Shown: in pieces, positions 44,528 through 63,872 of the stretch
How positions within the stretch are numbered: position 1 is the first letter of the stretch
How the letters are laid out: each line of letters opens with the position of its first letter
Source: Vibrio neptunius
GTDB lineage: Bacteria > Pseudomonadota > Gammaproteobacteria > Enterobacterales > Vibrionaceae
Assembly (NCBI RefSeq): GCF_000967495.1
Contig: NZ_JXXU01000011.1
Span: 1 to 64,000 of the forward strand
Direction: 5' to 3'
DNA: 64,000 nt
The notes under the pieces: generated by a model
Told to the model about the DNA's origin: nothing
The model's input: only the letters and a program-made list of their open reading frames with translations
Database searches by the model: none
Position numbers and translations under genes: made by a program

Positions 44528-45361
44528 TTAAGCTGGCAGCAAGTCTAAGCCACGAACCGTTACACGGTGAAGTCGACGCGGTTGATCGCCATAATCAGTC
44601 ACAGCAAAATGTTGAGTACAGATATTATCCCAGATGGCAACAGAGCCCGGCTGCCATGAAAACCGTACCTGATGTTCAGGTTGTCGCGCTAAAGCAAATA
44701 GTTGGTCGAGCCATTTTCGACTTTCTCTTTCTTCTAGCTCGTTAATACGCAGGGTAAACTGCTCATTGACGAATGCGGTCAGATTACCTGTTTCCGGATG
44801 ACGGACAATAAGAGGATGTTTAACCGGCGGGTAGCCTTTAGATACTGTTGCAACGCGGCTCTCCCCTTGTTCATTAACGGAGTCATAACGGCTGCCTTCA
44901 AACGCATGCAGCCCGTGTGTCGCCGTGAGTCCTTGTAAAGCTTGTTGCTCATCACGCGTTAGACGTGACCATACCGCTTCCATCGATGTCCAGATGGTGT
45001 CTCCTCCATGTGGAGGACAGTGCTGTGCTTGCAGGATAGAACAACGGCACGGCGTAGCCTGCCAGGTTAAATCTGTGTGCCAATAGCTTTCACCGGGGGG
45101 ATTACCGGGAGAAGTCTCAATCACAACCACCTGTTCTTCATCATCTAGGTGAGGAAAAAACGGGTGTACTGGCTCCAAATCACCAAAACGCTTTGCTAGC
45201 CCGATCTGCTGCTGCGGTGTCATTCCTTGGGCTTGAAAGAACAATACCTTATGTTTCAGGTAAGCTTGGTAAAGAGCAGAAAATTCTTGCTCACTCAAAT
45301 TAGAAAGATCAACGCCTTCAACTAAAGCGCCAATGTGCTCTGATAACGGAGTTAGATTCAC
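44528..45361 (-). CDS. TauD/TfdA-family Fe(II)/2-oxoglutarate dioxygenase
   Basis: A 277-residue dioxygenase. The iron facial triad is His95 and Asp97 (YWHTDLTW) with His251 (CTQHFAVTDYG), and Arg266 is a likely 2-oxoglutarate contact. TauD itself releases sulfite from taurine; related enzymes act on other sulfonates, aryloxy acids or amino acids, so the substrate is open. No tau transporter genes are nearby. The GTG start has AAGGATAAACC upstream. A terminator lies between it and the PLP-enzyme gene, so it is probably a separate transcript despite lying downstream on the same strand. Confidence 0.9.
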   Translation of the reverse strand: MNLTPLSEHIGALVEGVDLSNLSEQEFSALYQAYLKHKVLFFQAQGMTPQQQIGLAKRFGDLEPVHPFFPHLDDEEQVVVIETSPGNPPGESYWHTDLTWQATPCRCSILQAQHCPPHGGDTIWTSMEAVWSRLTRDEQQALQGLTATHGLHAFEGSRYDSVNEQGESRVATVSKGYPPVKHPLIVRHPETGNLTAFVNEQFTLRINELEERESRKWLDQLFALARQPEHQVRFSWQPGSVAIWDNICTQHFAVTDYGDQPRRLHRVTVRGLDLLPA

Positions 45362-45494: not shown

Positions 45495-46730
45495 CTATTG
45501 CCCTAAGATTAGTTTCAATTCATCAAACAAGATATCTACTTCTTCTAATGTGTTGTAGTGCATGAAGCCAATTCGGACAACACCACCTGATTCTTCGAGA
45601 CCGAGTTGACGAACCAAACCGAGCGCATAGAAGTGTCCGTTCCAGACACAGATGTTGCGCTTACCAAGTTTCTTAGCGATCTCTTCAGGCGAATGGTGGT
45701 CAAACGTTAGAGCAAAAGTTGGTGTTCTGATTTCACTGTTGGCTTCATTACGGCCCAACAATGCCACGCCTTTCAATTCTGCGAAACGAGCCAAAAAACG
45801 TTCGCTGATCGCCGATTCATGCTGATTGAACTGCTGGAAAGAGTCGATCAGTCGAGTACGGAGATCATCACCATCGTTGCCCCATTGAGCCAGATACTTC
45901 ACTGCCGCAATTACACCGGCTAATCCTTCAAAACTCTGAGTCCCAGTTTCAAACCGACCAGGTCCCGTATTGGTTGCAGGCTCAACTTTGTAGGGCTGCA
46001 AAGCATGCAGCCACTTAGGTGCCACATACGCTACCCCAACGTGAGGGCCAAAGAACTTATAGGCAGAGCAAGCAAGGAAATCACAACCCAATTGTTGAAC
46101 ATCGACTAAATGGTGCGGAGCGTAGTGCACCGCATCAACGTAAACCATCGCTCCGAACTTGTGTGCTGCTTCAACGACACGTTTCACATCTACAATCGAG
46201 CCTGTGGTATTCGATGCGTAAGTCAGTGCGATAAGCTTAGTCTTAGGACTGATCAGCGATAGCAAATGCTCTATGTCTAGTGAACAGTCTTGCTCGTTAA
46301 CTCGAGCCTGAAGGACTTTAGCTTGCTTATCATCGGCCGCTTGCTGCCAGCTAGAGACATTCGAATAATGATCGAGAGATGTAACAATGATTTCGTCACC
46401 CGCTTGCCAATTCCGACTGATAGCTCGGCTGAGCTGAAAAGTGAGAGACGTCATGTTGGCGCCAAAGACAATATTATCACTCGACTCTGCATTTAACAGT
46501 GCTTGTGCGGACTCTCTCGCTAGTTTCATTAAATCTGTAGTGTGGGCACTGGAAAAATAGTGACCACCCAGATTCGAATTAAAAAAGCCCAGATATGCGG
46601 TCATCGCTTCCAGAACACCATTTGGTACCTGTGAACCGCCTGGTCCATCTAGAAACATCACCGGCAAATCATTGTGGCTTTGCTGCAGCGCACGAAACTG
46701 TGCGCGTACCAAATTAGGAGTGAAGTTCAT
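45495..46730 (-). CDS. class V aminotransferase-fold PLP enzyme, cysteine desulfurase-like (VC1184 subfamily) without catalytic Cys
   Basis: A 411-residue PLP enzyme of the SufS/NifS fold. The Schiff-base lysine is Lys225 (CSAYKFFGPHVG), and TSLDHYSN and VYVDAVHYAPH match the cofactor region. At the place where SufS/CsdA carry the persulfide-forming cysteine (GHHCA) this protein has NGHFYAL, so the catalytic Cys is replaced and simple desulfurase action is doubtful. The subfamily resembles TIGR01976, named after V. cholerae VC1184, next to trxB there as here. It overlaps the dioxygenase gene by 17 bases, and its AAGGA site lies inside that gene, so the two are co-translated. Confidence 0.9.
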   Translation of the reverse strand: MNFTPNLVRAQFRALQQSHNDLPVMFLDGPGGSQVPNGVLEAMTAYLGFFNSNLGGHYFSSAHTTDLMKLARESAQALLNAESSDNIVFGANMTSLTFQLSRAISRNWQAGDEIIVTSLDHYSNVSSWQQAADDKQAKVLQARVNEQDCSLDIEHLLSLISPKTKLIALTYASNTTGSIVDVKRVVEAAHKFGAMVYVDAVHYAPHHLVDVQQLGCDFLACSAYKFFGPHVGVAYVAPKWLHALQPYKVEPATNTGPGRFETGTQSFEGLAGVIAAVKYLAQWGNDGDDLRTRLIDSFQQFNQHESAISERFLARFAELKGVALLGRNEANSEIRTPTFALTFDHHSPEEIAKKLGKRNICVWNGHFYALGLVRQLGLEESGGVVRIGFMHYNTLEEVDILFDELKLILGQ

Positions 46731-47376
46731 TCACGGCTTCCTTCGCGGTTAGTACAAATACGTCCATATACCCTTCTTCACCTTCAATTACAGAGCGAAT
46801 AGGCGTCGCGTTATGCCAAAGCTTATTATCGGCCAACATAGCGACTTCACCGTTTTGCAATACTTTACGGAAGAAAGGTGCCTCGTTGAAGCTGCTGTAA
46901 AGCATCACGTCACCACCTTCGATGTTGTGTCGCCCCATACCAATCAGAGCAATATGCTCAAACCCATCTTGATGCACGCCTTCAGGGGCTACCTGAGTTT
47001 CATCGAAAATAGCAGAGATGCGCATTTGGTGAATTTCAATTTCCTGACCGTCAATCAGCTTGTTTGCCTCTACAAATAACTGGCAAATTTCACGCATTCC
47101 TTCACTTTGAAGAGTCGGTATTTCAATCGGCTCGAATTGTCGTACGACATTACCCTGAAAACGATTAATATCATCGGTTTGCATAAACTCATTTTTCTGA
47201 AGATCAATAACCTGACCATCTTTAAACTGAATCACAGAGTAACGTCGCAAACGATATTGACCATCTGCATGCTCGGTATTGGGTAGCTTGGTAAAAGACG
47301 GCGCCAACTGTGCAAAAGCATTGTCACTTAGCTTAGTGAGCTGCAGAGTTGTTTCGCGGTTAGGTAACATCATCAT
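46714..47376 (-). CDS. 2-oxoglutarate/Fe(II) dioxygenase, PF10014-like (amino-acid hydroxylase family)
   Basis: A 220-residue protein. The iron-binding residues are His135 and Asp137 (PEGVHQDGFEH) with His188 (LWHNATPIRS), and Arg194 could hold 2-oxoglutarate. The pattern fits the PF10014 family, which includes free amino-acid hydroxylases such as the B. thuringiensis isoleucine 4-hydroxylase. Substrate here is unknown. AAGGAG precedes a run of three ATGs, so the exact start could be 47376, 47373 or 47370. It is the first gene of a two-gene operon with the Cys-less PLP enzyme and diverges from trxB. Confidence 0.83.
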   Translation of the reverse strand: MMMLPNRETTLQLTKLSDNAFAQLAPSFTKLPNTEHADGQYRLRRYSVIQFKDGQVIDLQKNEFMQTDDINRFQGNVVRQFEPIEIPTLQSEGMREICQLFVEANKLIDGQEIEIHQMRISAIFDETQVAPEGVHQDGFEHIALIGMGRHNIEGGDVMLYSSFNEAPFFRKVLQNGEVAMLADNKLWHNATPIRSVIEGEEGYMDVFVLTAKEAVNELHS

Positions 47377-61698: not shown

Positions 61699-63264
61699 GT
61701 GAACAAGGCCATTGAAATCAAAAAGCTGGGAAATCTTGAAGTTATCCAAGCATCTGCACCTTACACGCAGGATCCTACTCGTCTGTTTCATACTCTGTGT
61801 GAAAACAAAACCGACAGCCTGTTATTGGAGTCTGCAGAGATAGATTCAAAACAGAACCTCAAAAGTCTGCTAATCGTTGATTCCGCTGTTCGCATTGTTT
61901 GCAATGGCCACATTGTGACCATGCAAGCACTGACCAATAACGGTAAACACCTGCTTTCTCATTTGACCTACAACATTCATAGCAATGTGGCTCAATCATT
62001 TGATGGTCAAACACTGACACTAGAGTTTGAAGCGCCTTGCGATACACTCGATGAAGATTCTCGCTTACGAGAAGCGTCTTCTTTTGATGCGTTGCGTCTG
62101 GTCCAGCACAGTTTTGACCTTACTGAACATCAGCAACACGCCGTTTTCCTTGGTGGTCTATTCGCATACGACATGGTGGCGAACTTTGAACCTTTAGGTG
62201 ATGCTGAAGCATCAAACCAATGCCCAGACTACGTTTTTTACGTCGCAGAAACTCTGCTCGTGGTAGACCATCAGAGCGAGTCTTGTGATTTACAAGCGAC
62301 ATTGTTTGCGAATAGCGAAGAAAAAACGACGCTGGAAGCGCGCATTGAAAGCATTCAATCACAGTGCGCTAACCTGAAACATTTACCGCAAGCGACCAAA
62401 TTGACCGACGTATCTCCGCAGCCAAGCGTTTCAGACCAAGATTTCTGCCAAATCGTTCGAGATCTAAAGCAATACGTGGTACGAGGCGATATCTTTCAGG
62501 TTGTACCATCACGCCGCTTCATTCTGCCTTGCCCATCACCACTCGCGGCATACAAAGAGTTAAAGTTGAGCAACCCAAGCCCATACATGTTCTACATGCA
62601 AGATGAACTATTTACTCTGTTTGGCGCATCACCTGAAAGCGCACTTAAATACGAAACCCACACCAACCAAGTCGAGATTTACCCAATCGCAGGCACGCGT
62701 CGCCGTGGCAAACGCTCAGACGGCGCTATCGATTTCGATCTAGATAGCCGTATTGAACTTGAACTGCGGACTGATATGAAAGAGAACGCAGAACACATGA
62801 TGTTGGTGGATCTCGCGCGTAACGACGTCGCTCGTATTTCCCAAGCAGGTTCTCGCCACGTTGCAGACTTGCTTAAGGTCGACCGCTACAGCCATGTAAT
62901 GCACTTAGTATCCCGAGTGGTTGGTCAGCTTCGTGACGATCTGGACGCTCTGCACGCTTATCAAGCTTGTATGAACATGGGAACACTGACAGGCGCACCG
63001 AAAATTCGTGCAATGCAACTTATCAGAGACGTCGAAGGAGCACGCCGTGGTAGCTATGGCGGTGCTGTCGGCTACCTCACTGGCGAAGGCACATTAGACA
63101 CTTGTATCGTTATCCGTTCTGCTTATGTTGAGAATGGCATCGCTCAAGTTCAAGCGGGAGCAGGTGTGGTGTTTGATTCAGAACCACAAGCCGAAGCAGA
63201 TGAAACTCGTGGTAAGGCACAAGCCGTTATCTCTGCAATTCAGTCAGCGCATAAGGAGTCGTAG
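61699..63264 (+). CDS. trpE: anthranilate synthase component I
   Basis: A 521-residue chorismate enzyme that makes anthranilate with TrpG. The feedback-inhibition site for tryptophan includes LLLESAEID near residue 39. Catalytic blocks are YPIAGTRRRG (Ala in the PIAGT motif, versus Lys in PabB), MNMGTLTGAPKIRAMQLIRD and YGGAVGYLTGEG. The start is GTG at 61699 with a strong AGGAGG site. It is the first structural gene of the trp operon, with trpG two bases downstream. Confidence 0.97.
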   Translation: MNKAIEIKKLGNLEVIQASAPYTQDPTRLFHTLCENKTDSLLLESAEIDSKQNLKSLLIVDSAVRIVCNGHIVTMQALTNNGKHLLSHLTYNIHSNVAQSFDGQTLTLEFEAPCDTLDEDSRLREASSFDALRLVQHSFDLTEHQQHAVFLGGLFAYDMVANFEPLGDAEASNQCPDYVFYVAETLLVVDHQSESCDLQATLFANSEEKTTLEARIESIQSQCANLKHLPQATKLTDVSPQPSVSDQDFCQIVRDLKQYVVRGDIFQVVPSRRFILPCPSPLAAYKELKLSNPSPYMFYMQDELFTLFGASPESALKYETHTNQVEIYPIAGTRRRGKRSDGAIDFDLDSRIELELRTDMKENAEHMMLVDLARNDVARISQAGSRHVADLLKVDRYSHVMHLVSRVVGQLRDDLDALHAYQACMNMGTLTGAPKIRAMQLIRDVEGARRGSYGGAVGYLTGEGTLDTCIVIRSAYVENGIAQVQAGAGVVFDSEPQAEADETRGKAQAVISAIQSAHKES

Positions 63265-63266
63265 AG

Positions 63267-63872
63267 ATGGCTAACATTGTATTTATCGATAACTTTGACT
63301 CGTTTACCTATAACTTAGTCGACCAGTTTCGTTCACTCGGACATGACGTCAAAATCTACCGTAACCACATCGCTGCAGCAGTGATTGAAAGTGCGGTCAA
63401 CGAACTAGACAATCCGGTTGTGTTATTGTCTCCCGGCCCAGGGGCACCATCCGAAGCAGGCTCTATGCCAGAAGTCATCCAACGCCTGAAAGGTAAAGTG
63501 CCGATGATCGGTATCTGTCTTGGGCATCAAGCCATCGTTGAAGCCTATGGTGGTACCGTTGCTGGCGCGGGTGAAATTGTCCATGGCAAAGTGTCGATGA
63601 TGGAGCACCGGAATCATCCGACATATGCTGACCTGCCTTCACCACTTGCCATTGCGCGTTACCATTCATTGGTAGCCACACAGGTACCGGAAACACTTAC
63701 CGTAACCGCAGAAGTCGATGGCCTCGTCATGTCTGTGGTCCATGAACAAGATAAAATTTGTGGCTTCCAATTTCACCCGGAGTCCATCATGACTACCCAT
63801 GGCGCAACCCTGTTAGCCAATGCGATCGAGTGGGCTTTACAAGATTCCAATCTAACGTCAGTGCAGCAATAA
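63267..63872 (+). CDS. trpG: anthranilate synthase component II (glutamine amidotransferase)
   Basis: A 201-residue class I glutamine amidotransferase supplying ammonia to TrpE. The active-site cysteine lies in IGICLGHQAIVE, the triad His/Glu in FQFHPESIMTTHG, and LLSPGPGAP marks the oxyanion region. The start lies two bases after the trpE stop, and trpD follows as a separate gene, so trpG is not fused to trpD here as it is in E. coli. Confidence 0.96.
   Translation: MANIVFIDNFDSFTYNLVDQFRSLGHDVKIYRNHIAAAVIESAVNELDNPVVLLSPGPGAPSEAGSMPEVIQRLKGKVPMIGICLGHQAIVEAYGGTVAGAGEIVHGKVSMMEHRNHPTYADLPSPLAIARYHSLVATQVPETLTVTAEVDGLVMSVVHEQDKICGFQFHPESIMTTHGATLLANAIEWALQDSNLTSVQQ

Follow-up and report, generated by a model that had tools for sequence, protein, structure and literature searches.

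Within the window analysed here, a stretch of 64,000 nucleotides from Vibrio neptunius (contig NZ_JXXU01000011.1 of assembly GCF_000967495.1), two neighbouring genes on the minus strand encode an oxygenase of the Pfam family PF10014 (2OG-Fe_Oxy_2; 220 amino acids, positions 46714–47376) and a VC1184-type (TIGR01976) pyridoxal 5'-phosphate (PLP) enzyme of fold type I (411 amino acids, positions 45495–46730). Our findings show that the two genes form a true conserved unit whose adjacency is not a matter of chance, and they suggest that the pair is most likely a conserved cassette for the γ-hydroxylation and cleavage of an amino acid, with the conversion of leucine to acetone and alanine as the leading candidate. 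The two open reading frames overlap by 17 bases (46714–46730), as noted in the original prediction, and reading the sequence by eye reveals AAGGAA within the oxygenase gene, 7 bases 5' of the ATG of the PLP enzyme. Because of this overlap and the position of AAGGAA, translation of the two genes is likely to be coupled.

The conservation of the pair is clearest in Vibrionaceae. Among 61 sampled genomes of this family, TIGR01976 was matched in 46 (49 matches at E ≤ 1e-100) and PF10014 in 48 (61 matches at E ≤ 1e-10). A PF10014 gene lies directly upstream of 45 of the 49 TIGR01976 matches, on the same strand, and 44 of the 46 genomes with TIGR01976 carry the pair, including all 11 sampled members of the window's genus. 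In 43 of the 45 pairs the matched domains are separated by 14 to 35 bases, while 16 of the 61 PF10014 matches fall outside such a pair. Rare adjacency, which the original prediction had named as grounds for abandoning the idea, is therefore not found in Vibrionaceae, though adjacency is no rule for the PLP family as a whole, whose members are mostly unpaired outside Vibrionaceae and the other paired groups. As a separate observation, the PLP gene is apparently broken in two Vibrionaceae, being split into two frames in one (L145:1813-2966) and interrupted by an in-frame TAA in the other (G057:C2:881946-883094); in both, the adjacent oxygenase gene remains open.

A scan of named genomes, which covers the best 80 PLP-enzyme loci and is thus no survey, revealed the oxygenase gene adjoining the PLP gene in 52, with the oxygenase first and the PLP enzyme second. 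These paired loci belong to Vibrio (V. anguillarum and V. crassostreae among them), Photobacterium, Salinivibrio, Aliivibrio, Enterovibrio, Serratia, Pseudoalteromonas, Marinomonas, Alteromonas, Aliamphritea, Alginatibacterium and five cyanobacteria; one Gloeothece and one Salinivibrio record annotate the pair as “2OG-Fe dioxygenase” and “cysteine desulfurase-like.” In a phylum-wide sample of 398 genomes, the PLP enzyme was matched in 30 (E ≤ 1e-90). Two of 21 newly fetched loci have an oxygenase within 1.5 kb, one from Vibrionaceae (L077) and one from elsewhere (L082), and in one further genome the distance is about 3.6 kb (L156). Across 369 gammaproteobacterial genomes, 11 carry the PLP enzyme (E ≤ 1e-90), 22 carry PF10014 (E ≤ 1e-8) and five carry both. 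These five comprise the window genome, three genomes of one family with unlinked genes and an oxygenase that retains the 2-oxoglutarate (2OG)-binding arginine described below (G545, G657 and G753), and G079, whose PF10014 protein is also of the arginine type and is encoded far from the PLP gene; such independent cases are too few to weigh.

The PLP enzyme scores 524.2 bits against TIGR01976 (“am_tr_V_VC1184”), above its curated cut-off of 352.35, and 228.8 bits against Pfam Aminotran_5 (aminotransferase class V). TIGR01976 is listed by NCBI as a hypothetical equivalog named “cysteine desulfurase-like protein,” and the actual desulfurase models fall short on this enzyme: TIGR01979 yields 223.4 bits against a cut-off of 475.1, and TIGR03392 (CsdA) yields 155.6 against 493.6. 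Its predicted structure (mean predicted local distance difference test score, pLDDT, 96.0) matches SufS-type enzymes best, the closest being E. coli SufS (7rw3; Z 53.8, 1.2 Å over 381 residues). Besides the fold, the enzyme has in common with SufS and CsdA the PLP lysine (Lys225), a histidine over PLP and a carboxylate arginine, the latter two presumably with their SufS-type roles; His121, Asp199, His202 and Arg386 are among the residues recorded for it. It differs from them in carrying Tyr368 in place of the catalytic cysteine, Trp363 in place of the arginine of the same loop, and Tyr224 in place of the histidine before the lysine. The profile alignment sets the loop W363-N-G-H-F-Y368-A against R-A-G-H-H-C-A of B. 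subtilis SufS, and Tyr368 sits at the SufS cysteine position, which reads alanine in the C361A structure entries. The original prediction had described Lys225, an NGHFYAL motif and the lack of the usual persulfide cysteine from the window alone, and had proposed a structural comparison with SufS; both motifs are present, and the predicted structure together with the profile alignment bears out a SufS-type fold with tyrosine at the cysteine position.

This change extends well beyond the window. Position 368 is tyrosine in 105 of 107 rows of the TIGR01976 family, the remaining two being one gap and one histidine, and Tyr224-Lys225 is kept in all 107. No cysteine column is invariant in these rows, the most populated being positions 216 (94/107), 221 (88), 149 (87) and 361 (60); of these, Cys221 lies four residues N-terminal of Lys225. 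Given the tyrosine, the invariant Tyr224 and Lys225 and the lack of an invariant cysteine column, loss of the desulfurase cysteine is a trait of the whole VC1184-type family, and conservation offers no support for another conserved active-site cysteine.

The best solved relative of the PLP enzyme by sequence is FGM3 of the fusaoctaxin cluster of Fusarium graminearum (PDB 9x4u and others; 4.6e-51 and 177 bits by phmmer, 5.3e-95 in a profile search), which was overlooked when the VC1184 subfamily was originally described as uncharacterised. FGM3 likewise has no catalytic cysteine (GHFF there, GHFY here) and shares the tyrosine before the PLP lysine (Y224) and the YAPH, GPH and HYNT motifs, at which the printed SufS chains differ. 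It also shares H230 and H391 with the PLP enzyme, and the printed SufS chains do not. According to a paper on GntC (PMC10367076), Fgm3 acts on γ-hydroxyarginine by a retro-aldol reaction, with Tyr225 as its proposed base. The fungal setting differs from that of the PLP enzyme in that the FGM3 cluster contains a cytochrome P450 (FGM1) and, as far as it is described in the accessible text of PMC6389888, no PF10014 gene; the same source reports that deletion of fgm3 left fusaoctaxin A production unaffected in an overexpressing strain.

The oxygenase matches PF10014 at 190.4 bits (gathering cut-off 23.1), and its model (pLDDT 90.2) resembles HrmJ (9dq0, Z 25.1) and IDO (6lnh, Z 21.9). It shares family, fold and the HxD...H iron triad with the amino-acid oxygenases IDO, MFL, GlbB and HrmJ-BelL, which belong to PF10014 or stand close to it. 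Characterised PF10014 enzymes act mostly at the γ carbon (C4). The product of GlbB is 4-hydroxylysine, and the substrates given for IDO in PMC13336071 include leucine as well as methionine, norvaline and norleucine. The IDO and Hil operons for 4-hydroxyisoleucine likewise join a PF10014 hydroxylase to a follow-on enzyme; there, this is a short-chain dehydrogenase accompanied by exporters, whereas here it would be the PLP enzyme and there is no shared exporter.

The oxygenase had been taken for an ordinary dioxygenase with an intact His135/Asp137/His188 triad. The metal site stands, the triad being intact in 82 of 82 rows, a set made up of the pair members plus some unpaired Vibrionaceae PF10014 genes. 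The anchor for 2OG does not, since Met204 replaces the 2OG-anchoring arginine of PF10014 enzymes. This is the position of GlbB Arg267, which lies 16 residues past the second triad histidine and, judging from a homology model, probably binds 2OG. Arginine occupies the position in the five solved chains with printed alignments (3pl0, 9dq0, 8jms, 9dqp and 8w8h, of seven matched), in 22 of 23 gammaproteobacterial PF10014 loci (L098-L120, where L120 is a fragment lacking the site), in the two second-copy genes checked in Vibrionaceae and in two loci on cyanobacterial plasmids. Within the 82 rows, only 21 have arginine, and the other 61 have a hydrophobic residue (Met 35, Leu 18, Trp 5, Ile 2, Phe 1).

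A quick tree built from 63 rows places the oxygenases lacking this arginine together on one side of a single branch (Shimodaira–Hasegawa-like approximate likelihood ratio test, SH-aLRT, 89), and this result is unchanged when positions 141 and 204 are blanked before tree building. A single loss is therefore likely, on a tree that has several long branches and no established root. A second position sets the same group apart. Oxygenase residue 141, four after the triad aspartate, is basic and mostly histidine in 57 of the 61 rows lacking arginine, compared with about 6% of 18 arginine-bearing rows (argG-linked second-copy genes left aside), and relatives mostly have Phe, Tyr or Leu there; one arginine-bearing protein (L112, the same gene as L152) also has histidine. 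Arg45 was considered as a substitute for the missing anchor and dropped, as it is also common in arginine-bearing PF10014 proteins. The simplest reading is that the co-substrate pocket was remodelled once, so that either His141 now holds 2OG or the enzyme works with a 2-oxo acid whose side chain is apolar. With the anchor gone and the pocket apparently rebuilt, the co-substrate may be something other than 2OG, and we do not class the enzyme as a simple 2OG dioxygenase.

The pathway as we infer it, including the two reactions, the order in which they occur and the substrate, would run as follows. The oxygenase would use Fe(II), O2 and a 2-oxo acid to hydroxylate a free L-amino acid at its γ carbon (C4), as its family membership suggests. 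The PLP enzyme would then form an aldimine with the γ-hydroxy amino acid by way of Lys225, and a retro-aldol break of the Cβ–Cγ bond would release L-alanine and a carbonyl compound, a step modelled on FGM3 and on the chemistry of the cysteine-desulfurase fold. Cleavage of a Cβ–Cγ bond that leaves alanine is chemically near the Cβ–S cleavage of desulfurases, and no catalytic cysteine would be required, since what leaves is a carbonyl carbon and not sulfur. We consider this general chemistry, γ-hydroxylation followed by Cβ–Cγ cleavage, slightly more probable than its opposite, and see about an even chance that the pair is a self-contained two-step pathway of amino-acid cleavage with leucine as its leading substrate. 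Of the two-step scheme originally predicted, hydroxylation followed by cleavage gains indirect support from the gene pairing, the kinship with FGM3 and the C4 preference of PF10014 enzymes; nothing in these results favours the transamination or the sulfur substrate that it also allowed.

For leucine, the route would lead through 4-hydroxyleucine to acetone and L-alanine; it would require O2, leave both methyl groups of acetone untouched and form alanine. Leucine is our leading guess because vibrios make acetone from it by a route to which, to our knowledge, no genes have been assigned. A 1999 paper in the Journal of Bacteriology, from the group that had reported acetone formation in 1995, is said to have found leucine-dependent acetone widespread in Vibrionaceae, with Listonella and Photobacterium angustum among the producers, and to have shown that the process needs O2 and does not use the 3-hydroxy-3-methylglutaryl-coenzyme A (HMG-CoA) route. 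The methyl deuteriums of leucine were reportedly retained, the yield was reportedly about 0.61 mol acetone per mol leucine, and α-ketoisocaproate is said to have been the precursor, efficiently turned into acetone by whole cells. HMG-CoA lyase (matches counted at E ≤ 1e-60), an enzyme that the classical route requires, is found in 18 of the 61 Vibrionaceae genomes; 31 of the 44 pair-bearing genomes have no match and so seem unable to take the usual path from leucine through acetoacetate. In the earlier work, marine vibrios formed as much as 8.7 mM acetone when breaking down leucine (Nemecek-Marshall 1995, as cited in PMC4033308). Among the papers listed in a search of the open-licence literature, judged by titles and the beginnings of abstracts, none tied these genes to Vibrio acetone. 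Chemistry, lineage and phenotype fit well together, though only circumstantially, and the conversion of L-leucine to acetone and L-alanine by this pair is a tentative proposal, possible without being probable.

A more specific version, which we regard as unlikely, holds that the pair is the vibrio leucine-to-acetone pathway and that its oxygenase abandoned 2OG for a hydrophobic 2-oxo acid, perhaps the α-ketoisocaproate derived from leucine. Methionine, leucine or tryptophan would then stand in for the arginine, and α-ketoisocaproate would be the electron donor for leucine hydroxylation. One leucine would thus cover the cost of oxidising a second, and the acetone yield would be close to half a mole per mole of leucine.

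Several observations weigh against the two-step pathway and its leucine version. FGM3 is a distant relative (177 bits), fungal, with a substrate derived from arginine rather than leucine, and it is missing from the 50 rows listed by each of two fold searches, which SufS-type enzymes lead, although the library (to April 2026) may omit it. Its Tyr225 has no certain counterpart, the numbering offset being uncertain: Tyr224 is invariant, and the residue two after the lysine is Phe in the window. PF10014 enzymes are not strictly C4-specific either, as IDO accepts methionine and norleucine and the more distant TqaL makes aziridines. The absence of the 2OG-anchoring arginine makes the first step, as usually written, doubtful, and the window genome itself has an HMG-CoA lyase. 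Furthermore, 28 of the 80 named loci are unpaired (L204 and L214 being so counted with upstream DNA too short to judge), among them loci from Chloroflexi, Nostoc-like cyanobacteria, Aeromonas, Planctomycetota and Acidobacteria, and outside Vibrionaceae only one of 20 newly fetched loci has an oxygenase within 1.5 kb. The pair is also present in cyanobacteria, which are not known to have a leucine-to-acetone trait. Finally, the absence of an aldehyde dehydrogenase beside the pair, which might speak for a ketone product, proves little, because the 28 unpaired loci have no match either.

That last point bears on the possibility that the chemistry is the same and the substrate another amino acid: the pair would form γ-hydroxyarginine, γ-hydroxylysine or 4-hydroxyisoleucine and split it into an aldehyde and alanine (or 2-aminobutyrate). 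We consider this somewhat unlikely. In its favour, FGM3 is described as acting on γ-hydroxyarginine and GlbB makes 4-hydroxylysine, and a Rhizobium homologue beside agmatinase and creatininase genes suggests a guanidino substrate in that branch. No aldehyde dehydrogenase match flanks the 52 paired loci, a weak objection for the reason just given, and no transporter or ureohydrolase is common to the pair across genera, though such enzymes could be encoded elsewhere. A sulfur substrate has less in its favour and is in our view improbable. Under this explanation, the oxygenase would first oxidise a sulfur amino acid and the PLP enzyme would be a C–S or sulfinate lyase, in the manner of CsdA on cysteine sulfinate or of EgtE and OvoB. 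The SufS-like fold (Z 53.8 to 7rw3) is that of a cysteine desulfurase, and cysteine sulfinate can be cleaved without a catalytic cysteine; IDO, itself a PF10014 enzyme, accepts methionine, and an EgtC-like protein lies beside an unpaired oxygenase relative (L141). Yet the SufS arginine two residues before GHHC is Trp363 here, the histidine before the lysine is Tyr224, the residues Y224, H230 and H391 tie the enzyme to FGM3 and not to the printed SufS chains, and no sulfur genes were recognised among the scanned neighbours, which are a selection only.

Two further explanations change the role of one enzyme. The oxygenase could act directly on α-ketoisocaproate, in the style of 4-hydroxyphenylpyruvate dioxygenase (HPPD) or α-ketoisocaproate dioxygenase, while the PLP enzyme belongs to a different reaction. 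The missing 2OG arginine and the whole-cell conversion of α-ketoisocaproate reported from 1999 would suit this, but it leaves the PLP partner unexplained, and oxygenases that keep the arginine (cyanobacteria, Enterovibrio type) show the same pairing; we judge it quite improbable. Even less probable is that the PLP enzyme transaminates the hydroxylated product without cleaving it. The match to aminotransferase class V would agree with that role, but the solved relatives with a described reaction (FGM3, SufS, CsdA and UstD) break a bond at Cβ, the reactions of UstD and CsdA both being Cβ-bond cleavages.

The surroundings of the pair, examined by clustering neighbour genes in 41 stretches and in the 80 named loci, are often stable within a genus; most Vibrio shown have genes read as trxB-cydDC. 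Across the 52 paired loci (46 with a full 4 kb on each side), no neighbour cluster is common to more than three of 17 genus labels, and the few that are shared link Vibrio with Aliivibrio (cluster 10), Salinivibrio with Enterovibrio (28), Aliamphritea with Alteromonas (43) and, in four cases, cyanobacteria with one another. Since the two genes stay together while their surroundings change, the pair probably needs no dedicated third gene. The neighbouring gene for a TauD/TfdA-family dioxygenase (277 amino acids, positions 44528–45361, minus strand) was considered as a third component and set aside: relatives (E ≤ 1e-60) occur in 19 of the 61 Vibrionaceae genomes and, judged from coordinates, the window genome is the only one where such a gene adjoins the pair. 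In several of the other Vibrionaceae genomes, a TauD relative lies roughly 10 kb from an unpaired PF10014 gene. In two loci (L141:9440-16822 and L142:2686-10005), an unpaired relative of the arginine-lacking oxygenase ends a run of oligopeptide-type ATP-binding cassette (ABC) transporter genes that includes an EgtC-like amidohydrolase, with a TauD relative slightly further on. An ergothioneine-type C–S lyase was rejected as a candidate function, because the EgtC-like protein in L141 (201.4 bits against a cut-off of 218.65) adjoins the unpaired relative and does not lie near the pair.

Alphaproteobacterial relatives of the PLP enzyme were followed in 10 records, of which nine were fetched and seven gave annotated plasmid neighbourhoods. 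An aldehyde dehydrogenase gene stands one to three genes upstream of an unpaired PLP relative in four of the seven, with ABC transporter genes in the cluster; these are R. leguminosarum Vaf10, R. etli Mim1 (two neighbourhoods) and Rhizobium CB3060, and the three from R. etli and CB3060 repeat a single cluster almost unchanged. In Rhizobium CIAT894, two short-chain dehydrogenase genes lie downstream, with agmatinase and creatininase genes on the upstream side, and two Shinella records have neither arrangement. These clusters hint at a lyase that would make an aldehyde from imported hydroxy amino acids. Two rhizobial aldehyde dehydrogenases used as queries (E ≤ 1e-6) had no match in the flanks of the 52 paired or the 28 unpaired loci; the absence was consequently dropped as a sign of product type and says little about the pair. 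Among the plasmids L250, L251 and L253-L255, VC1184-type genes occur with ABC transporters, four of the five also with an aldehyde dehydrogenase and an M20-type hydrolase, and three records come from Mimosa, Leucaena or Vavilovia hosts; such clusters possibly serve hydroxy amino acids of the host plant.

Other loci were noted along the way. A second PF10014 protein with the 2OG arginine is encoded in the V. neptunius genome itself (contig C18, about 62990-63571; L146:8560-12454), flanked by an argininosuccinate synthase-related protein (NF038212, 607 bits) and an EamA-type exporter, with an adjacent LysR regulator, and is perhaps part of a separate operon for amino-acid tailoring and export. 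In a metagenome-assembled genome from Acidobacteria (L237:1307-5242), the PLP domain ends an open frame of 1311 residues, and no Pfam family matches the first 900 of these at E ≤ 1e-5; the frame is either a fusion or overlong. VC1184-type genes are also borne on plasmids of Piscirickettsia salmonis (L248) and Aeromonas (L249), where the stretch shown carries no oxygenase annotation, the gene table being incomplete and the upstream side of L249 cut by the record end.

If this interpretation is correct, genes named only “cysteine desulfurase-like” and “2OG-Fe dioxygenase family” would become a defined catabolic pathway in 44 of the 61 sampled Vibrionaceae genomes. The VC1184 family would gain a reaction, its misleading desulfurase name would be corrected, and the pair would offer a natural set of enzymes for producing alanine together with a ketone or aldehyde. 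The hydrophobic replacement of the 2OG anchor would represent a natural case of a 2OG-type oxygenase switching or re-anchoring its co-substrate. The pair would also explain genetically how Vibrionaceae form acetone from leucine, acetone being a trace gas relevant to marine and atmospheric chemistry.

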